Below are positions 26,731 through 39,934 of a stretch of DNA of 39,934 nucleotides, one piece after another. Positions within the stretch are counted from its first letter, which is position 1. Each line of letters begins with the position of its first letter. The position numbers and the translations under genes are program-made. The stretch comes from Clostridia bacterium (lineage in GTDB: Bacteria > Bacillota > Clostridia > Oscillospirales > Acutalibacteraceae). Where the stretch lies: NCBI GenBank assembly GCA_017516745.1, contig JAFXBF010000019.1:1-39934 (forward strand). The letters are read 5' to 3'. Under the pieces are notes generated by a model. That model worked only from the letters and a program-made list of their open reading frames with translations, did no database searches and was not told where the DNA came from.

Positions 26731-26852
26731 TTTTAACACTTTATATTTAAAAATACAACTGTTTTAAAAAAATAAATAAGTATATATATTTGGTAAAGGT
26801 AAACAGCGAGTAACAAACAAAGCAAAAACGACCGTGCAGCCGTTTCGCAACA

Positions 26853-27050
26853 CGGTGTCGGAATTTGTAACTATTTTGTAACTATTTGTAACCATTTTGT
26901 AACTTCTTTTTTGGCAAAATATGTGTTATAATGAATTTGCAACCAAACGAAAAGGCGGAGATTCCGATGGTTTGAATAAAAAATACAATATTTGATGCAT
27001 GAAAAAGCAATCAATCGGGAGACCAATCACAGAACCCTCCCCTGATTGGT
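26853..27050 (+). repeat. Promoter/leader repeat block R1
   Basis: First of three near-identical ~200-base blocks. Order: CGGTGTCGG, four GTAAC boxes spaced 11, 10 and 11 bases, an extended -10 TGTTATAAT (TATAAT 26927-26932), an RBS-like GGCGGAG, the tiny frame ATGGTTTGA, then MKKQSIGRPITEPSPDW and stop running into a palindrome (27022-27050, arms ACCAATCA/TGATTGGT). Blocks R2 and R3 repeat this order. Confidence 0.85.
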
Positions 27051-27290
27051 AATATTATTACAGGAGGAGAAGAAAATGTTGGAAGTAATACAGGAAATAT
27101 TGATGGGATTATATCTACCAATAGCTTACTTTCTAGGACCAGTGTTGGCAGCAATAGTCGGCTGGCCGATAGTTCTTTACGATATTCTGGAAATGTACTT
27201 GAGACATCATTAACCAACGAAACACTCTCACAAGAAGCTGATGATAACACTCATAGACAACTTATTGTTGTTGCGATACGTGGCTCTGTA
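27051..27290 (+). pseudogene. Class 3 lipase-like fragment 1
   Basis: An open frame begins right after the palindrome and ends in a second one. It holds an Asn/Ser/Thr-rich stretch followed by RQLIVVAIRGSV, which matches the strand and oxyanion region (vvvA.RGT) ahead of the catalytic domain of class 3 lipases. No start codon, catalytic GHSLGG or C-terminus is present, so it cannot make a lipase. Confidence 0.5.
27076..27213 (+). CDS. Putative small hydrophobic protein A (45 aa)
   Basis: Lies in a different frame inside lipase-like fragment 1. ACAGGAGGAGAAGAAA is an excellent ribosome binding site directly ahead of ATG 27076. The product, starting MLEVIQEILMGLYLPIAYF, is a single strongly hydrophobic helix with a charged tail (YLRHH). 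Similar ORFs occur at the same place in the other fragments. It may be a genuine membrane peptide or a chance product of the Asn/Ser-rich frame. Confidence 0.4.
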   Translation: MLEVIQEILMGLYLPIAYFLGPVLAAIVGWPIVLYDILEMYLRHH

Positions 27291-27363
27291 CCAATCAGTA
27301 CCAATCAGGGGACGGTTCTCTGATTGGCTATGTTTACCAATCAGGGTACGGTTCTCTGATTGG

Positions 27364-27644
27364 TATTACAACTACGATCACGATGAAAGTGTTGCACACG
27401 TTGTGGCACATAAAAACATTATGTTTTCATCACATGAAAGCGAACAAGAAAATACAGAAGGAGACAACATTGATGGACTTTCTTACAATGATACACGAAC
27501 TTATGCAAGCAATTCAAATATTGTTAGGTTATCCGATTATGTATATAATAGCAGCAATATCGTCACCGATATATGTACCGATAGCTCTGATCAAGGATTA
27601 TTTTCATCTGTAACTTCGACAGTTCCAAGCTTAGGAGAAACGTA
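27364..27644 (+). pseudogene. Class 3 lipase-like fragment 2
   Basis: Frame differs from fragment 1, from which it is separated by two palindromes. It carries DESVAHVVAHKNIMF, matching the segment that precedes the RGT motif in clostridial lipases, then an Asn/Ser-rich stretch, and runs into the palindrome at 27645 without the RGS motif. Confidence 0.5.
27473..27613 (+). CDS. Putative small hydrophobic protein B (46 aa)
   Basis: Nested out of frame in fragment 2. AGAAGGAGA lies 9-10 bases ahead of ATG 27473. The product includes LLGYPIMYIIAAISSPIYVP, a clear membrane helix, and ends IKDYFHL. It resembles product A in length and in the P-I-x-Y pattern. Confidence 0.4.
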   Translation: MDFLTMIHELMQAIQILLGYPIMYIIAAISSPIYVPIALIKDYFHL

Positions 27645-27674
27645 CCAATCAGGGGACGGTTCTCTGATTGACTA

Positions 27675-27871
27675 CGGTGTCGGAATTTGTAACTATTTTG
27701 TAACTATTTGTAACCATTTTGTAACTTCTTTTTTGGGAAAATATGTGTTACAATGTGTTTGTTAAGAAATAAAAGGCGGCGATTCCAATGGTTTGAATGG
27801 ATTTACACAGTATTTAATATGTAATAACTAATCAATCAGGAGACCAATCATAGAACCGTCCCCTGATTGGT
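27675..27871 (+). repeat. Promoter/leader repeat block R2
   Basis: Second copy of the block: same CGGTGTCGG, same four phased GTAAC boxes, but the -10 is TACAAT and the sequence after it has diverged; ATGGTTTGA is kept behind GGCGGCG. Ends in the palindrome 27843-27871. Confidence 0.85.
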
Positions 27872-27929
27872 GCGATAGGTTATCGTAATGTCATCGTTGA
27901 AAATAATATTGAAACAGAGGTAGATAATA

Positions 27930-28052
27930 ATGATACTAGTATTACTAATGATGTTCTTGTCTGGAATTCTGGCCGCAATACTTCAACCATTTCCTCAGTT
28001 GAAGTCAGCATTGGAGATGCTGTTTATCAAACTGATGGATCTGGATCTTTAA
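27930..28052 (+). CDS. Putative small hydrophobic protein C (40 aa)
   Basis: Nested in fragment 3, first module. AGAGGTAG stands ahead of ATG 27930. The product is hydrophobic with the stretch FPQLKSALEMLFI, which parallels FPALKQVLEFI in product D. Several differences between the two copies keep the amino acid in this frame (AAA/AAG, CTG/TTG, ATA/ATC). Confidence 0.4.
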   Translation: MILVLLMMFLSGILAAILQPFPQLKSALEMLFIKLMDLDL

Positions 28053-28178
28053 GCTCAAGTGAAACGTCAGTTCAATCAAGCGATAGTAGACCATTGGTGG
28101 TAGTTGGTGTAGCAGCTCATACAATAGGACACAGAGAAATAACTATAATAGACAATTCTTCGACAGGAGACAATAATA

Positions 28179-28307
28179 ATGATAACAATAGCTATGATGC
28201 ATCTATTTATGATACCGTTAGCGTATCTAGTGGAAATCTTTCCAGCGTTGAAACAGGTACTGGAGTTTATAGCTCAAATAATAGTGGAGCTGAATCCGAT
28301 AATATAA
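28179..28307 (+). CDS. Putative small hydrophobic protein D (42 aa)
   Basis: Nested in fragment 3, second module. ACAGGAGA lies ahead of ATG 28179. Product begins MITIAMMHLFMIPLAYLVEI and contains FPALKQVLEFI; it is hydrophobic throughout and ends ELNPII. Confidence 0.4.
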   Translation: MITIAMMHLFMIPLAYLVEIFPALKQVLEFIAQIIVELNPII

Positions 28308-28443
28308 GACAACTTATAGTTGTTTCTGTAAGGGGCTCTGTTTCGTTGATGGCTTGGGCGATTGATCTTACTAACCAAATCAACTTAGAATATCTCAACT
28401 TTGAAACCGGATACCAATCAGGGGACGGTTCTCTGATTGACTA

Positions 28444-28641
28444 CGGTGTCGGAATTTGTAACTATTTTGTAACTATTTGTAACCATTTTGTAACTTCTTT
28501 TTTAGCAAAATATGTGTTATAATGAATTTACAACCAAACGAAAAGGTGGAGATTCCAATGGTTTGAATAAAAAATACAATATCTGATGCATGAAAAAGCA
28601 ATCAATCGGGAGACCAATCGCAGAACCGTCCCCTGATTGGT
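28444..28641 (+). repeat. Promoter/leader repeat block R3
   Basis: Third copy, closest to R1: four GTAAC boxes, TGTTATAAT, GGTGGAG, ATGGTTTGA, then the same short MKKQSIGRPIAEPSPDW frame ending in the palindrome 28613-28641. The high identity of R1 and R3 points to recent duplication or recombination. Confidence 0.85.
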
Positions 28642-28651
28642 AGTCCCCTGA

Positions 28652-28972
28652 TTGGTACATACATCTGCGGACTGTGGAGCACATACAATAGCATACCGTG
28701 ATATCGAGTTTTCGATTTCAGAAAATACTAATATTACCAATGAAGGAGCAAATGAAAATGATAGTATTTCAATATATAGAACTGATGTTTCAGGAACTTT
28801 ACATGCTGGCTTATATAATATTGGCAGCGATACGGGGAGCTCTCAATTAACAAATTCAAAACAATTGGTTGTTGTAGCTATTCGTGGCTCAGTAACCGAT
28901 GATGATTGGGATAACAATTTCAAAACTCAATTTGTACCTTGGGATAATACCAATCAGGGGACGGTTCTCTGA
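28652..28972 (+). pseudogene. Class 3 lipase-like fragment 4
   Basis: Best-preserved piece: CGAHTIAYRDIEF, Asn/Ser-rich stretch, then KQLVVVAIRGSVTDDDWDNN, the full RGT..DW motif of class 3 lipases, before it is cut by the palindrome at 28950. The catalytic serine region is absent. Confidence 0.55.
28752..28850 (+). CDS. Putative small hydrophobic protein E (32 aa)
   Basis: Nested in fragment 4. GAAGGAG is 4 bases ahead of ATG 28752 and 10 ahead of the in-frame ATG 28758, the better spaced start. The product contains ELYMLAYIILAAIRGALN. Confidence 0.35.
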   Translation: MKMIVFQYIELMFQELYMLAYIILAAIRGALN

Positions 28973-28987
28973 TTGACTAAACACTAT

Positions 28988-29036: not shown

Positions 29037-30875
29037 TCAGTTCATCTTGATTGCCGCAAGCTCTTCGGCAGAGCCGATATCAGCGGCGGCGACCACGCTT
29101 TCGATATCAACGGGAATTTCACCGTCCAGCTTGCCTGACTCGGTAAAGGTGAGTCCGCCCTTGTATTCTGCCGGTATATAGCCCTCCTGTGCAAGTTCAG
29201 CACGCTGAACAAGCACCTTCATAACATAATCGTGCTGTCTGTTGTTGTAATTCCAGAAGCCAAACGGAATCATCATCAGAATATGACCCACAAGGTCTAT
29301 GGCAAGCGGAATTGCAAGCAGTTTGAATCTTGCGGCATCAATAAAGAAAACGTCCCAGTTCGAGTTAAAGCCGCTGCTCAAAAGCATAATCGGAATAACA
29401 AGGCCTACTATGGTTGTAACAGGTGCGATAAACCAACTGAAAACGCCGCCGAAGTTTTCCAGTCTTTCGCCGGAGAGATACATCTGGTAGTCGCCCATAC
29501 GTCTGCTCATATCGCTTTCCGCCATCTTGACGATTTCTTCAAGGAAGCCTCGAATCCACAGTATGATATAAAGCGTAATTGCGCAGAACGATACATTTTC
29601 GCCGGCTATTGCAAGCACTCCGATAATCATTGCGATTGATACCGTAAAGAGTGCCTGCTTGAAAAGCTTAAGCGTTCTGTAGGAAAATTTCTTCATAATA
29701 TACGGTGCTATAAAATTGGGAATTGTTCCACGGAAGGTAAACAGCAAAGTCAGCAGGCTGTATTCAAGACCGCTGAGTCTCATTGAATACAGGTAAATAA
29801 CCGCCATAATATCAATCATACCGTTACCCAGTGCATCAATAAGAGTAGCCGTGGTGTTAATCCAGTTATACTTGTTGCGCATAACCTCAAATATGCCGTA
29901 CCAGAAGGAAACATCCTGTTTCTTTTCAAGCGGAGGCTGAGGAATACGCTCCTGCACCTTGCCTGCAAAAACAAGTGTCAGCGCAGCAATCGGGATAAAG
30001 AAGCCGGGAAGAACGTAGCGGTAGAAATTGATATCGCTGAATTCGCCGAGAAGCGGAATTACCATAGCAACAATGGAGTTGAGAAGGTGAGCAATTTTGA
30101 CGGGGTATGTTCTGATTTTAATACGCTCCTGAACATTGGGGCTGCAAAGGAAGGCGCAGGTTTCCATTTTGTCGTCAAAGGAGTACAGGTTGAACAGGGA
30201 GAAAAGAAGATAAGCAATCCAAAAACGCTCGTCAACGTCCTGAATATTGTAAACGGGCAGCCAGCCGATAAGGATAATTGCTATAGATTTCTGGAAGAAG
30301 TTGCTGTAAAGAATATACTTGTATCTGCCGTATTTGGGAACAAGCTTCTTGCGCCAGAAAATATCTCTCAGACCGCCCAGGCCGCCGAAAAGAATCTGGA
30401 TGCCGAAAATCTTGAACACACTTCGTGCCGAAATACCTGCAAAGCTGTCAAGCATTGAAACCAGTGCACCGTCCGCTGGCAGCAGCTTTGAAGCATCGAA
30501 AACAAGCAGGAGCAAGCCGATTAAAAACGACCCCATATAGAACGTGTTAACGGAGCGTGCCGTTTTCTTCGGCATAAAGCCGAGGTTGTCTGAAACAATC
30601 CAGCCGACAATATTCCAGATATAGCCGAGAGGAAGTCCGATAAGACCTACAACCGAGAAGGCAAGATAAGGCAGGTTGTAGTGGTACATTATCAGGTAGC
30701 ACGAAGCACCGAAGCCGATATAGCCAAGCGGTGAACGTGCGGCATAGTTGAACATTATGCCGAGGAAAATGTGCAGGTATTCTTTATAGGGAACGAAATT
30801 GCCCTTTGAACGGTCGGGCTCATGCCAATGGTCCTTTATGTCCTGAAAAAAGGCTTTTGTTTTTTCGTTTGCCAT
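29037..30875 (-). CDS. MFS-type (GPH-like) transporter, 612 aa
   Basis: About a dozen membrane helices. The N-terminal loop (HWHEPDRSKGNFVPYKEYLHI) and segments such as GLPLGYIWNIVGWIVSDN and RGFLEEIVKMAESDMSRRMGDYQMYLSGERLENFGG resemble glycoside/cation-symporter-like members of the major facilitator superfamily found with LRR proteins in gut Clostridia. Longer than usual because of extended cytosolic loops and a ~60-residue acidic C-terminal tail. Substrate unknown; a sugar is plausible given the divergent GH98 gene. RBS AAGGAGG overlaps the end of the upstream LRR gene, whose stop is 1 base before this start. Confidence 0.75.
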   Translation of the reverse strand: MANEKTKAFFQDIKDHWHEPDRSKGNFVPYKEYLHIFLGIMFNYAARSPLGYIGFGASCYLIMYHYNLPYLAFSVVGLIGLPLGYIWNIVGWIVSDNLGFMPKKTARSVNTFYMGSFLIGLLLLVFDASKLLPADGALVSMLDSFAGISARSVFKIFGIQILFGGLGGLRDIFWRKKLVPKYGRYKYILYSNFFQKSIAIILIGWLPVYNIQDVDERFWIAYLLFSLFNLYSFDDKMETCAFLCSPNVQERIKIRTYPVKIAHLLNSIVAMVIPLLGEFSDINFYRYVLPGFFIPIAALTLVFAGKVQERIPQPPLEKKQDVSFWYGIFEVMRNKYNWINTTATLIDALGNGMIDIMAVIYLYSMRLSGLEYSLLTLLFTFRGTIPNFIAPYIMKKFSYRTLKLFKQALFTVSIAMIIGVLAIAGENVSFCAITLYIILWIRGFLEEIVKMAESDMSRRMGDYQMYLSGERLENFGGVFSWFIAPVTTIVGLVIPIMLLSSGFNSNWDVFFIDAARFKLLAIPLAIDLVGHILMMIPFGFWNYNNRQHDYVMKVLVQRAELAQEGYIPAEYKGGLTFTESGKLDGEIPVDIESVVAAADIGSAEELAAIKMN

Positions 30876-30876
30876 A

Positions 30877-31950
30877 TCAACCTACCTCCTTTTCCTGATT
30901 ATAGAGTACAGGCACAGCTTTCATAATGACATTCCTCTTTTTTGGAATCCAGGCATCGCCGAAATCGACAAGCTCGTCAGCCTCTTCCTCGGAAAGCTCC
31001 ATATGAATCTGCTCTGCGCCGCAATTATAGAAGGCGTGGTGACCGATTTCGGTTACGCCGGCAGGAATATAGATGTATTTTACTTCGCCGCAGAAGCTCA
31101 GCGCATCCGAGCCTATCTTCTGCAGGGTTGACGGGAAATCTACCGTTTCCATCTGTGAGCAGCGGAAAAGCGCCATTTCCTCAAGCTCAACTATGCCCTC
31201 GTGAAGAACAACCTTCCTTAACTTTTCGTTATAAGCAAAGGCAAGATGCCCCACCACCTTAACGGTGTCGGGCAAATCAACGGTATATCGGTATTCCTCG
31301 TAAGCGGCGTCAATTTCTTCTGCGTTGTCCTCACAGAATTTAAGGAAAGCCTCAACCTGCTCGGGTGACTGCGGAACTGCCGCACCGACAGCCTCTGCCG
31401 CCAGCACGTAAGCCCTCTTTGCAGGCGAGAAAACCGCCTTAACAGGCTGACCGTTTTCAAGCTCGTAAAGCACGCCGTCAACAACTCTGTAATGCTCGTT
31501 GCCTTCTTCCACAAAAACACCGTAAAGATTGTTTACGGTAAAGAAGGACGTGCTTTCAATTTTCTCAACAGTCTTTGATATGTATATAAAATTCAGGTAC
31601 TCGTTACAGTTTATTGCATATTCCCTGACCTGCGTTACGGGCTTTGATGTGTCGGGCTGATTGCCGTCCTTGTCACGCAGATAATCTATATACAGCACCC
31701 TGTCTGTTTCTCTGCCGGAAAACTGTGAGAGCATAATACCGTTTTCCGTTTCCTTGAAAGCGTATCTGTCACGCTCAAGCGAGTAAAAGCTGAAATAAAT
31801 TGAAGCCAGCACCGAGGCAACAATAACAATTACAAAAACCGCCCTTTTCCATTTGCTCTTATAGCGGTTTTCGGATGCATTGCGCATTTTTTCGTCAAAC
31901 ATAGGGTCATACAACAGTACCCTTTGAGTATAATCACGCTTTTCGCCCAT
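30877..31950 (-). CDS. Membrane-anchored leucine-rich-repeat (LRR_5/BspA-like) protein
   Basis: 357 residues. Charged cytosolic N-terminus, one membrane helix at about residues 36-56 (AVFVIVIVASVLASIYFSF), then an outer domain. Residues ~235-320 contain BspA-type repeats: VVGHLAFAYNEKLRKVVLHEGIVELEEMALFRC, LQKIGSDALSFCGEVKYIYIPAGV, TEIGHHAFYNCG. Such repeats bind proteins or glycans. Starts at ATG 31950 with GAGGGGAT ahead. It is tightly coupled to the transporter, suggesting a joint role in sensing or uptake. Confidence 0.82.
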   Translation of the reverse strand: MGEKRDYTQRVLLYDPMFDEKMRNASENRYKSKWKRAVFVIVIVASVLASIYFSFYSLERDRYAFKETENGIMLSQFSGRETDRVLYIDYLRDKDGNQPDTSKPVTQVREYAINCNEYLNFIYISKTVEKIESTSFFTVNNLYGVFVEEGNEHYRVVDGVLYELENGQPVKAVFSPAKRAYVLAAEAVGAAVPQSPEQVEAFLKFCEDNAEEIDAAYEEYRYTVDLPDTVKVVGHLAFAYNEKLRKVVLHEGIVELEEMALFRCSQMETVDFPSTLQKIGSDALSFCGEVKYIYIPAGVTEIGHHAFYNCGAEQIHMELSEEEADELVDFGDAWIPKKRNVIMKAVPVLYNQEKEVG

Positions 31951-32015: not shown

Positions 32016-32084
32016 TAGTTTTTTGTGTAATTTACCGTTTGTTTATATATTAATACCAATGTCCTTATTTACTGCTTAATATGT

Positions 32085-32145: not shown

Positions 32146-34107
32146 ATGAAAAAAATTATTAGCTTACTTCTTATTGCGGCTATGCTGATTATGATTGGGC
32201 TTGAAACGGTTGCCGTTGACAACACTGCGGCTGACGCACAGTCAGACCTGCTGCCGCTGTCGCCTAAATCAAACGAGGTAACGCAAATCCGCACACGCAA
32301 AAAGGTTGACGGGCTTCGTATGTACGTTGACGAGGAAAATCCGCTGTTTATGATTAGAAACTGCCCTATCTGGGGCGGCCCGCAGACGGGTGAAGCGTTT
32401 GCAGAATATGCAATTAAAACATATAACGCTCTGCCCGAGGATATCCGAAACTTTGCGGTTATTTACATTGACGAGGGCACAACGGATATGACCCCTGCAA
32501 GACAGCTCGAATTCTGGGACGAGCTGCTGACAATTACCGATGCGGCAAACGTGCCGATAGTCTGCCAGTCCGAGTGCTTCTGCACAAACAAAACCCGTGA
32601 CCCCTTTACACAGGAGGAGCTTTCCGCCGTATTCAAGGAGCACCCCTCGCTTATCGGCTTTGTTCAGGTTGAGCTTTCGACAAACGGCGTGACGAACGAA
32701 AAGCTTGCCTACGATGAAGTAACCGAGGATAACGGCGTAAACAAAAATATTCTCGCCCGACTCAAATCCTGCATAAAGGCCTGTGCCGAAAACGGCGGCC
32801 TTTTCATCTGGCAGGATATGGAATACATCTACTACAAAAAAGCCAACTACATAAACCAGATTCTCAAGGACAGAGAGCTTTACGACCTGCTCAAGGCAAA
32901 CACCGAAAACGTAATTATTATGGACAAGCACAACGGCCACGGCAGGCACTTTGCAAGCCAGTCCAATATTCTCGGCTGCTGGCTGGACGATGTCTGCGGC
33001 AACTGGGGTGTAAACCTTGAAAACTTTCTCTGGTATGAGGAGGGCTTTATTGAATACGACGATATCGGCGTTGCCCCCAACGAACCCGACCCGATTACAA
33101 CGGCAAAATATCCGCCTGCGCTTTTCGGCATTGATATGATAGCCGACCTTGTCGGCGGTGCAACCGTTTACGCCATTGAAGGAACGTTCAGCCGTGGCGG
33201 TCTTTACCACTTTGTTGACGGTGAGGTTATTCTGACCCCCACCTTCTACGACGTGCTTTACCCGATTTATCAGCTTGTTTTAAACGGTGCAGTGCCGAGC
33301 AAGGAAGAGGTAAAGGAAAACATCAAGGTTGCATACAAAATGACCCTTCCCCGTTCGTACGCTTTAAGCGGTAACGACGCACACCTGCTTCAGGGTCTTT
33401 ACTGCGACGTATTTTCGTTTATCGACGAAAAATTTGACATTTCCCCGTATTTCGACTGCACAAAAACCTGGGTACCCTCCACAGGCAGATACTACCTTAT
33501 CCCCATTCTGCCGATTTACTCAGACCCCGAGCAGGTGCTTCCCGAAGCCGAAGTTCTCAACGATTTCACCTATTTTTTCAACCTGCTTTTCATAAACCCC
33601 ATTAAGACAAAATTCTTCAACAAGCGCTACGAGGAAACCTATAAGGGTGACGGCGTGCTGTTCGACATAAACGATTACATCTACATTTTCAACAGCAATG
33701 AAAACAAAACAATTGACAGCGAGCAGACAGTCAGCTACACACTGCCCGAAAGCAAAGTACAGCTTAACGCAACGCTCGAGTCACACACCTATGCAATAAT
33801 CGATGAAAAAGAAGACCGAATTGAAATTGACCTTTGCAACCTGCGCCTTGACACCGATGCGGTCTGCGCAGGGCTTGAGGGTGAGGACCAGTTTATGCGT
33901 GCCTATGCCGCAGGCGGTAAAATGAACAATCCCCGTGATTTCAGAGTAACGGTCATTACCCTCACGGGCTTTGATACCTGCCCATCAGTAGATGCAACAG
34001 CCTCCAACAACGCCAAAGGCAAAATGGAATGGGACGAGGCAACAAAAACACTCACCCTCACCGCATACACCAACGGCGAAACAAGAATAACGGTAATACC
34101 GGAATAA
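32146..34107 (+). CDS. Secreted GH98 endo-beta-galactosidase (blood-group glycan)
   Basis: 653 residues with a signal peptide (MKKIISLLLIAAMLIMIGLE). By recall it aligns along its length with pneumococcal GH98 enzymes: HPSLIGFVQVELS (E176), ENGGLFIWQDMEY, WLDDVCGNWG (D281/D282), GGATVYAIEGTF (E345), GAVPSKEEVKENIKVA, LLQGLYCDVF and a C-terminal beta-sandwich. E176, D281/D282 and E345 fall where the family's active-site acids lie. GH98 enzymes release A/B blood-group trisaccharides or H disaccharides from host glycans. No lipobox or sorting signal, so probably released. Own promoter and a perfect terminator frame it as a single-gene unit. Confidence 0.87.
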   Translation: MKKIISLLLIAAMLIMIGLETVAVDNTAADAQSDLLPLSPKSNEVTQIRTRKKVDGLRMYVDEENPLFMIRNCPIWGGPQTGEAFAEYAIKTYNALPEDIRNFAVIYIDEGTTDMTPARQLEFWDELLTITDAANVPIVCQSECFCTNKTRDPFTQEELSAVFKEHPSLIGFVQVELSTNGVTNEKLAYDEVTEDNGVNKNILARLKSCIKACAENGGLFIWQDMEYIYYKKANYINQILKDRELYDLLKANTENVIIMDKHNGHGRHFASQSNILGCWLDDVCGNWGVNLENFLWYEEGFIEYDDIGVAPNEPDPITTAKYPPALFGIDMIADLVGGATVYAIEGTFSRGGLYHFVDGEVILTPTFYDVLYPIYQLVLNGAVPSKEEVKENIKVAYKMTLPRSYALSGNDAHLLQGLYCDVFSFIDEKFDISPYFDCTKTWVPSTGRYYLIPILPIYSDPEQVLPEAEVLNDFTYFFNLLFINPIKTKFFNKRYEETYKGDGVLFDINDYIYIFNSNENKTIDSEQTVSYTLPESKVQLNATLESHTYAIIDEKEDRIEIDLCNLRLDTDAVCAGLEGEDQFMRAYAAGGKMNNPRDFRVTVITLTGFDTCPSVDATASNNAKGKMEWDEATKTLTLTAYTNGETRITVIPE

Positions 34108-38193: not shown

Positions 38194-39888
38194 TTACGCA
38201 GACTTCTTATCTGCTTCTTCAACGATTTCTTTATTCATTTCAATATAGTTAACCACATTTTCATAAGCATCGTTGAATTTGAATTTAATTGTAATGTTGC
38301 CGCCCTCGTGAACAAGAATCTCATCAATCAGTTCAACCACCATAGGTCTGTTAAGTGACTCGATATTACCGTACTGTTTAAAATGTGAGATAAACTCGTT
38401 CTCACTATTCAGACCTTGAGCGTACTCCTCTGCCGTTTTGGTAAGGCTTTGAATTGTGCTGTCTATTGACTCGATTTTCTCTGTGAGATTGGCTTTTAAC
38501 TGCATATATTCTTCCCTTGTAATAACGCCCTGCTTCCAGTCGGGGTACAAATCAAGGGACATTTTTATGCACTTCTCACGCTCGGCAGATTGTGTCTTAA
38601 TCATCTTCTGCAGATGGGTTGACTCCTTTTTTCGCTTACTGCTTTGATTGATTATTTCAAGGATTTCATCAAACTCAATGGCAGTATCAATCATTTTCTG
38701 CAATGTGACAAGCACCGCAGTTTCAAGCTTATCAATACGGATTGTGTGATTGGTGCAGGCATCCTTGCTCATTTTTCTTGATGTCATACACCTGTAATAG
38801 CGATAAGTGCCGTAGGAATGAGTATTGGTTTTCTTGTTCATAATACGGTGGCAATCTGCACAGCGAACAAGCCCCGAAAACAAATCAACCTCTTTTTTTA
38901 CAGGTGATGAACGGATATTCTTTCTGAAAAGTGACTGAGCCTTATTGAAAGTATCCTTATCAATTATTGCTTCGTGGGTGTTCTCAACGATAATCCACTC
39001 GTCCTTTGGTATGGCTCTGCATTGCTTGATTTTGTAGCTGATTGTCGTGTTCTTGCCCTGCACCATATTTCCGATATACATTTCATTCTGCAGGATTCTT
39101 CGTACAGAGCTGTCGTGCCACAAGCCGTCGTTGCTCTTACCCATAGGATGACGGTAGTTAAGTCCTTTCAGTTTCTTATGCATTGACGGATTAGGTATAC
39201 CCTCATCATTCAAGGCTTTTGCAATACCGATAATGCTTTGCCCTGCTATGAACCTTTCAAAAATCATTCGTATAACAGGTGCAGTTTCTTCGTCGATAAT
39301 AAGCTGATGATGGTCATTCGGGTCCTTTAAATAGCCGTAGGTCGGGAAAGAGCCGATAAATTTACCCTGAGCTCTGTTCACATTGAGAGTACCTCGTACA
39401 TTGACAGAAGTAGTTGCCGCAAGACTTTCATTTATAACATTGGTAACACCTACGGAAATGCACTGAGTTGCCGCATTCATACTGTTTGAAGCGGTATCAA
39501 TACCGTTGTTAAGAGCAATAAAACGTACCTTTAATCTCACGAAAACATTATCAAGATAATTACCCGCATCGGTGTAATTTCTTCCGAAACGGGACAAATC
39601 CTTTACAACAACGCAGTTAACCGTACCCGCATAAATATCTTCCATCATACGGACAAAGCCGGGACGGTCAAAATTAGTACCGCTCCAACCGTCATCCACA
39701 TAAAAGTCGTGAGCCTCGATATCGGGATGAAGCTTAAGGTATTCCTTTAAAATTTCACGCTGTGAAGTGATGGAATAGCTTTCTGATTTATCCCCGTCCT
39801 CACGGGACAGACGAATATAAAGAGCAGCCTTCCAGGTTTTTAATTCCCTCTGAGGCTGCTCTAAATAATCCTTATATTTTGAATACAT
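38194..39888 (-). CDS. Large serine recombinase (TnpX/Tn4451-like)
   Basis: 564 residues. N-terminal resolvase domain with catalytic S28 in YIRLSRED, then SITSQRE, DDGWSGTNFDRPGF and KDLSRFGRNY. The recombinase domain follows (YGYLKDPND, RMIFERFIAG, ILQNEMYIGNMVQGK), then a zinc ribbon (LVRCADCHRIM...YRYYRC), a coiled coil and a beta-strand tail (GGNITIKFKF). It catalyses excision and insertion of a mobile element. ATG 39888 is chosen over 39903 because GGAGG is 8 bases ahead of it. The element it belongs to is not closed inside the window. Confidence 0.93.
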   Translation of the reverse strand: MYSKYKDYLEQPQRELKTWKAALYIRLSREDGDKSESYSITSQREILKEYLKLHPDIEAHDFYVDDGWSGTNFDRPGFVRMMEDIYAGTVNCVVVKDLSRFGRNYTDAGNYLDNVFVRLKVRFIALNNGIDTASNSMNAATQCISVGVTNVINESLAATTSVNVRGTLNVNRAQGKFIGSFPTYGYLKDPNDHHQLIIDEETAPVIRMIFERFIAGQSIIGIAKALNDEGIPNPSMHKKLKGLNYRHPMGKSNDGLWHDSSVRRILQNEMYIGNMVQGKNTTISYKIKQCRAIPKDEWIIVENTHEAIIDKDTFNKAQSLFRKNIRSSPVKKEVDLFSGLVRCADCHRIMNKKTNTHSYGTYRYYRCMTSRKMSKDACTNHTIRIDKLETAVLVTLQKMIDTAIEFDEILEIINQSSKRKKESTHLQKMIKTQSAEREKCIKMSLDLYPDWKQGVITREEYMQLKANLTEKIESIDSTIQSLTKTAEEYAQGLNSENEFISHFKQYGNIESLNRPMVVELIDEILVHEGGNITIKFKFNDAYENVVNYIEMNKEIVEEADKKSA

Positions 39889-39934
39889 TAGTATAACCTC
39901 CACTTGTTTATCTATATAAACAAAGCGGAAGCAC

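Follow-up and report, generated by a model that had tools for sequence, protein, structure and literature searches.

Organisation of the array

The window analysed here is a stretch of 39,934 nucleotides from a Clostridia bacterium of the family Acutalibacteraceae (assembly GCA_017516745.1, contig JAFXBF010000019.1), and the subject of this study is an array at positions 26852-28980, composed of three promoter/leader blocks of about 200 nucleotides, eight palindromes and five modules. The blocks start at 26852, 27674 and 28443. The palindromes are imperfect, measure 27-29 nucleotides, belong to a single family and lie in both orientations, three minus and five plus. These counts agree with the initial annotation of the window, as does the presence of five modules without a full lipase, tblastn having detected lipase scraps only. 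The same annotation characterised the modules by a pattern of AH..AHR.I, an Asn/Ser-rich stretch and QLVVVAIRGS. Our tblastn search recovered it, in the form AH..I, Asn/Ser and LVVV.RGS, in two of the five modules (28100-28462 and 28676-28933); module 3 showed both ends in a weaker form, its RPLVVV end being fused to module 4, and modules 1 and 2 had one end each rather than the full pattern. The proposal that lipase-like modules are the payload was not upheld. Each of the five modules contains a small open reading frame (ORF) with a Shine-Dalgarno sequence (SD), an ATG and a stop, which encodes a hydrophobic peptide of 30-46 amino acids in a frame other than the lipase-like one, and the Asn/Ser-rich text is the shadow frame of this ORF.

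The palindromes are referred to below as repetitive extragenic palindromic (REP) elements, an assignment discussed in a later section. The array would comprise three transcription units, each running from a promoter through a leader and a minus-oriented REP to one or two small ORFs and a plus-oriented REP. Its features are as follows, with contigs given as C numbers (those of the window's own genome where no other is named) and other genomes as G numbers.

26852-27021, plus: promoter/leader of unit 1; its motif is also found ahead of the intact C12 lipase
26867-26903: four GTAAC direct repeats of unit 1, spacing 11/10/11
26924-26932: extended -10 element TGTTATAAT of unit 1, followed by the leader
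27022-27050, minus: REP palindrome, 5' seam of unit 1, at which the leftward homology to the corresponding G008 and G005 loci stops
27076-27213, plus: small ORF m1, B type, 45 amino acids, SD AGGAGG
27241-27299, plus: lipase scrap RQLIVVAIRGS, in the other frame
27300-27327 and 27336-27364, plus: two REP palindromes
27367-27470, plus: lipase scrap AHVVAHKNI..., also present at G008 C7, where 93 of 95 aligned bases agree
27473-27613, plus: small ORF m2, B type, 46 amino acids, SD AGGAG
27644-27670, plus: REP palindrome, 3' end of unit 1
27674-27842, plus: promoter/leader of unit 2, sharing 97% identity with the one block of the matching site, G008 C1
27843-27871, minus: REP palindrome, 5' seam of unit 2
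27930-28052, plus: small ORF m3, A type, 40 amino acids, weaker SD GAGGT
28179-28307, plus: small ORF m4, A type, 42 amino acids; among those compared, the nearest to the ORF nested in the C12 lipase
28413-28439, plus: REP palindrome, 3' end of unit 2
28443-28612, plus: promoter/leader of unit 3
28613-28641, minus: REP palindrome, 5' seam of unit 3; an apparent partial second REP comes next
28758-28850, plus: small ORF m5, C type, 30 amino acids
28851-28946, plus: lipase scrap KQLVVVAIRGSVTDDDW
28949-28975, plus: REP palindrome that closes both unit 3 and the array at the 3' end

Blocks 1 and 3 are 97% alike, and block 2 resembles the others at only 64% in an ungapped comparison because of indels and at 86-88% in a gapped one. 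The array ends in a terminator-like stem that differs from the lipase terminator, and Rfam gave no match in the window at the gathering threshold. An assembly collapse, which had been named as a possible artefact, is unlikely, because the contents of the units differ and loci of related type exist in G003, G004, G005 and G008.

Small hydrophobic ORFs nested in lipase genes

We scanned both strands of the entire window for ORFs of 28-60 amino acids with an SD, an ATG and a grand average of hydropathy (GRAVY) of at least 1. Five were found, all of them in the 2.1-kb array and on one strand; all five have an SD, an ATG and a stop, the SD being required by the scan itself. Their products fall into three recurring types, A, B and C. 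Across 17 peptides from five genomes of the genus and from G146, a genome of another genus, the net charge ranges from -6 to +1, with 15 of the 17 negative or zero, and GRAVY ranges from 1.0 to 1.6. AlphaFold2 predicted a single helix for m1 (predicted local distance difference test score 95) and two helices with a break near Pro22 for m4 (score 85). By this charge range, and with no Pfam or NCBIfam match better than E 0.04 among the ten peptides scanned, the products do not qualify as leaderless bacteriocins. A profile of the A peptides gave matches in 31 of 300 genomes at E values up to 0.1; four genomes of the genus matched with best E values of 7e-16 or lower and G146 at 6e-5, and the remaining matches outside the genus, at 0.005 or above, were set aside. 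Two further kinds of small ORF were seen near palindromes. A fourth hydrophobic type (MLIIAAALGG...) lies beside variant palindromes on C9 (L031 2065-2190) and on G005 C7 (L222), and another hydrophobic ORF (MDSIFDFLNNAF...) adjoins a palindrome-like core on G004 C42 (L205 2244-2408).

The search for an intact lipase elsewhere in the genome, which the initial annotation had recommended, returned a single Lipase_3 (PF01764) match, in a protein of 1294 amino acids encoded on C12. This protein has BACON domains and a CBM96 match slightly below its cut-off, and it is here, not in the window, that the complete Lipase_3 catalytic domain with GHSxG is found. The gene is preceded by the GTAAC motif and encloses an A-type small ORF, one register out. 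The suggestion that the array exchanges sequence with an intact gene elsewhere gained little from this gene, whose nested ORF has only 79% DNA identity to module 4. The same nested design recurs in G005, G006 (three) and G008, in lipases or what remains of them, and arithmetic on the coordinates gave an identical register in each such lipase. The three G006 copies carry differing nested ORFs, and in one of them an in-frame stop interrupts the lipase inside the insert while the nested ORF reads on.

To survey lipase frames, 30 loci were reduced to 18 frames, the remainder being dropped as lacking GHSxG under the pattern used. Three of the 18 have the insert (C12, G005 and G006), and in the 15 others, one from the same genus and 14 from other genera of the family, neither an insert (by eye) nor a nested ORF (by scan) was found. 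The insert is thus a feature of this genus as sampled. A lipase scan of named genomes yielded seven relatives, and the small ORFs in four of them (L090, L092, L094, L096) were, by eye, unlike the family described here. Small ORFs and REPs also occur in G003, a genome without a Lipase_3 match, and in G146, for which no lipase was listed and where a short HREI-like scrap precedes the A ORF.

That both frames stay open is explained in part by the codon register: a T in second position moves to third position when the frame is shifted by one, and no stop codon ends in T. We compared the frames for signs of selection. The second position of the small ORF, which is the third position of the lipase frame, was the least changed in all 42 pairs under peptide-guided alignment and in 10 of 11 pairs under DNA alignment. 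In a permutation test, fewer amino-acid changes than expected by chance (p<0.05) were found in 5 of 11 pairs for the ORF frame, and in none of the 11 for the lipase frame or the third frame. When the C12 insert was recoded with random synonymous codons, a frame that was open and had an SD, a start and a GRAVY of at least 1.5 arose in 0.045% of trials.

REP palindromes and proposed exchange at matching sites

Seven of the eight palindromes folded, with z scores from -1.5 to -4.5. The exact core GGGGACGGTTCT occurs eight times in the window's own genome, six times in the array and twice on C21, and its reversed control does not occur; the remaining two palindromes of the array have an altered core. 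A longer core, with up to one mismatch, was found at eight places, again six in the array and two on C21, and a variant with other inner arms lies on C9. Among 300 genomes of the family, the exact 12-base core was present in 95, with up to 320 copies in one, although single matches may be due to chance because the reversed control also gave one or two matches in a number of genomes. No match to the window palindrome, searched as a single pattern, was found in viral contigs.

A search for Y1 transposases in nine genomes led to 16 fetched loci. In six of them (L145, L146, L147, L150, L151, L155) the core stands on both sides in inverted orientation, with the arms proper to that genome; one locus has the core on one side, at a contig end, and nine lack it. 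At the Y1 locus of G198, the palindromes share the CAATCA arms seen in the window. Of the six proteins, three were scanned and scored 81.5, 81.4 and 72.9 bits against the model of REP-associated tyrosine transposases (RAYTs; NCBIfam NF047646, cut-off 80 bits), so that two of them pass. By this sequence context the palindromes of the array are REP elements, because they flank RAYT genes in other genera of the family. In G064, the genome with 320 exact cores, tandem REP cores with 20-nucleotide spacing lie beside a Y1 transposase (L146 1089-1340).

The array resembles REP/REPIN and RAYT systems (PMC3733652, PMC3116915) in its short palindromes in both orientations, inverted pairs and variable arms, and in the adjacency of such palindromes to RAYT genes (NF047646) in other genera of the family. 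Unlike in those systems, the REPs here bracket gene cassettes and sit at exchange seams, and no REP-flanked RAYT was found in the own genome. The CGTC-REP families of PMC3733652, in which CGTC is a terminal tag, were considered and rejected, as the core GGGGACGGTTCT has CGTC (on the other strand) inside the palindrome and not at its end. An exact literature text search with the palindrome core strings retrieved 17 papers, none of them on REPs, judging by titles and the beginnings of abstracts.

We then queried 11 genomes of the genus with the promoter/leader; five gave matches, and further sites were found. Sites are called matching here when they share flanks, which does not imply a tree. The loci can be arranged in a series. 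C12 holds the full lipase and no REP; G005 C14 has the promoter, the leader, a minus REP, a headless lipase without its N-terminal part and an intact A ORF; at G008 C77 and C21, REPs stand on both sides of a lipase scrap and an ORF, with a terminator that aligns with the lipase terminator; and the window has three such units in tandem. The series closes with the REP-associated ORFs of G003 and G146 described above. The lipase terminator is kept at three standalone loci (C21, G008 C7 and G008 C77) and not in the window array. To this extent the earlier idea that lipase genes decay at the palindromes was borne out, C21 and G008 C77 combining lipase promoter, terminator and scrap with REP seams, and G005 C14 retaining its headless gene.

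Three sites were compared between species. At site I, C21 and G008 C7 align collinearly along 6.9 kb with 89-91% identity, except for the segment between the REPs. This segment, which runs exactly from the minus to the plus REP, measures 214 nucleotides in one and 234 in the other and is wholly different, with an A-type ORF against a B-type ORF. The interchangeability of cassettes, also proposed at the outset, is therefore supported, because two species with about 90% identical flanks carry a different peptide gene between the REPs; judged from sequence, the payload would be the nested peptide gene. Site II is the window array, which corresponds to one empty unit at G008 C1 and to a promoter with a minus REP at G005 C32. 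The homology on the left ends at the same minus REP in both comparisons and resumes at 32083; in G008 it is split into 284 bases beside the array (81%) and a stretch of 2.2 kb lying farther to the left (87%), and in G005 it is a continuous 1.8 kb (88%). At site III, G008 C77 matches G005 C16 on its left up to the minus REP (90%) and G005 C14 on its right (96%), a pattern as after recombination between two sites. Module 2 and the module at G008 C7, whose lipase scraps are nearly identical (see the feature list), agree in 91 of 134 ORF positions, the ends of the ORF being alike and its middle variable.

The promoter blocks were compared in the same manner. Block 2 is nearest to the block of G008 C1 (0.97), blocks 1 and 3 are nearest to each other (0.96), with C21 and G008 C7 next (0.91-0.92), and the blocks of C21 and G008 C7 are 0.98 alike. 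The G005 C14 and C16 blocks are 0.99 alike, above the 0.88-0.92 between either of them and three compared G008 blocks, which suggests conversion in that genome.

These data bear on the possibility that the unit is mobile as such, a RAYT moving a REP pair and its cargo as a composite, like a REPIN with a gene inside. The ORFs do lie between inverted REPs, the family contains RAYTs that share the core, and three inverted pairs resembling REPINs, 38 bp apart, occur in G097. However, the eight Y1_Tnp matches of the own genome had no palindrome in the fetched loci, the orientation of the array (minus, gene, plus) is opposite to that around RAYT genes (plus, gene, minus), and the 99% likeness of the two G005 blocks points to gene conversion. 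We regard this scenario as unlikely, and recombination of the RecA type seems more likely than a transposase-driven process because no REP-flanked transposase was found in the own genome.

Probable origin and possible role of the cassettes

Taking the nesting, the REP identity of the palindromes and the difference in content at matching REP-bounded sites as established at the level of sequence, the best overall explanation is probably that the array consists of small peptide-gene cassettes which originated nested in lipase genes, are bounded by REPs and are swapped at fixed sites. The cassettes would have arisen by deletion of the lipase body at REP seams with the nested ORF kept, the direction from nested to free being suggested by the lipase scraps that standalone cassettes retain. 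They would then be exchanged by recombination, with the promoter/leader/REP blocks serving on the left and the REP and terminator on the right. Their products, hydrophobic, mostly acidic or neutral peptides of 30-46 amino acids in three types, might act in the membrane, and their diversity might serve competition or recognition among relatives; membrane activity or a specificity-determining function is our best guess, and membrane action together with a role in competition or recognition is a guess that we hold with less confidence than its opposite. A broader proposal, that this is gene exchange free of integrase and phage, in which REPs act as seams of expression sites and lipase-born peptide genes are swapped between loci and species, is a little stronger and still tentative.

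A factor that binds the GTAAC repeats may activate each unit at the same time as exported enzymes, a step of which we are less sure. The repeats occur at eight places in the own genome (C8, C9, C12, three times on C18, C21 and C26); they precede a gene on C26 that is peptidase-like by eye, are found in reverse ahead of genes on C8 and C9, and in G005 precede a gene whose product looks secreted by eye.

Several observations weigh against the cassette explanation. Three sites (L199, L203, L204) have a promoter and REP and no ORF; the SDs of most listed ORFs are partly circular evidence because the ORFs were found through an SD filter; and none of ten peptides compared with Pfam, NCBIfam and PHROGs fits a family (best E 0.037). 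The ORF-frame test was not significant in 6 of the 11 pairs, including C21/G006 (p 0.50) and G006/G005 (p 0.71), and these pairs were hand-chosen from 15 ORFs, share sequences and are not independent. The result of 42 in 42 leans on peptide-guided alignments, and T at position 2 is common by hydrophobic composition. Random synonymous recoding of the C12 insert keeps the ORF frame open in 52% of trials, third-position T is moderately enriched in this insert (23 of 39 against 423 of 1043, p 0.03), and its level is reached by 36 of 1253 gene windows. Block likeness within a genome exceeds that between matching sites in G005 only, the reverse holding for C21/G008 C7 and for block 2/G008 C1.

The small ORF might instead encode an immunity or chaperone-like partner of the lipase, the arrays being orphan immunity genes. 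Orphan immunity genes are kept after loss of their partner, as the lipase is lost here; nesting in the lipase gene would give co-expression, and the three G006 lipase copies have different ORFs. However, we saw no sign that the lipase acts on bacteria, G003 retains ORFs without a lipase match, and the peptides match no family, so that this too is improbable. In polymorphic-toxin and orphan immunity cassettes, content is swapped at fixed sites with conserved flanks and orphan leftovers accumulate in arrays. The present loci share fixed-site exchange, conserved flanks and leftover arrays with them and differ in a payload that is a hydrophobic peptide of 30-57 amino acids, nested out of frame and bounded by REPs.

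It could also be argued that tandem lipase genes simply decayed by REP insertion, and that T-rich third positions in an Asn/Ser-rich loop gave rise to the hydrophobic frames incidentally. The lipase scraps with REP seams fit this view, as do the openness of a shifted frame in 52% of recodings, the three sites that have lost the ORF and the 6 of 11 pairs without significant constraint. However, the ORF frame is constrained in 5 of 11 pairs and the lipase frame in none, SD, start and hydrophobicity are jointly rare by chance (0.045%), ORFs persist in G003 and G146 as described above, and all five window ORFs are intact. Random decay alone, which the initial annotation had weighed, is a poor fit, as ORFs are intact while lipase frames are lost, yet some sites lack the ORF too; we consider it very improbable. 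The weakest alternative, a type I toxin-antitoxin system of short membrane toxins with a hairpin leader and an antisense RNA, fits in peptide size, hydrophobicity, structured leader and an excess of promoter-like sites (15, where 9.2 with an sd of 2.7 were expected; of the six minus-strand sites, four fall inside m1, m2, m4 and m5), but these sites are bare consensus matches, Ile, Met and Tyr codons alone give TATAAT-like strings, and known type I toxins are unlike peptides of which 15 in 17 have negative or zero net charge; we consider it likewise very improbable.

Other known systems share single traits with REP-bounded, lipase-nested cassettes. Staphylococcal phenol-soluble modulins of the PSM-beta/SLUSH type are small amphipathic leaderless peptides of about 40 amino acids encoded in tandem, like the peptides here in length, tandem arrangement and absence of a leader, and unlike them in that the present peptides have no Pfam or NCBIfam sequence match and a nested origin. 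Rickettsia palindromic elements are inserted in frame in coding genes, and in both cases an additional peptide segment is tolerated inside the host protein; here, in contrast, the insert is not a palindrome and has its own ORF with an SD. Overprinted small bacterial genes likewise have a short ORF that overlaps a longer gene out of frame. The two cases in PMC5960689 and PMC5810103 are both reported to be antisense overlaps, unlike the present ORFs, which lie on the same strand and are also free-standing and swappable. Among papers retrieved on nested ORFs in lipases, small hydrophobic arrays and REP cassette exchange, none described this system in its title or abstract. The loci offer a tangible example of how an overprinted mini-gene may leave its host gene and become independent and exchangeable, with what look like intermediates, and they suggest that REP palindromes may serve as the seams at which cassettes recombine. 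They are also a warning that an open frame rich in Asn and Ser can be the shadow of a gene for a small hydrophobic peptide, which annotation may miss.

Some minor features were observed in the leader and around the array. The leader sequence GGCGGNGATTCCRATGGTTTGA (window 26950-26975; also in units 2 and 3, C21 and G005 C14) resembles an SD with a two-codon ORF, ATG GTT TGA; this ORF reads GTG GTT TAA in C12, and CGA replaces its stop in G008 C7. Two genes at 29037-31950 separate the array from the gene at 32146, and because homology with G008 C1 and G005 C32 resumes only at 32083, the array and these genes may represent one insertion or a double loss elsewhere. Near the ends of the window lie two further ORFs, at 38194-39903 and 984-2126, which we take to be a large serine recombinase-like ORF and a mobilisation-protein-like ORF, respectively.

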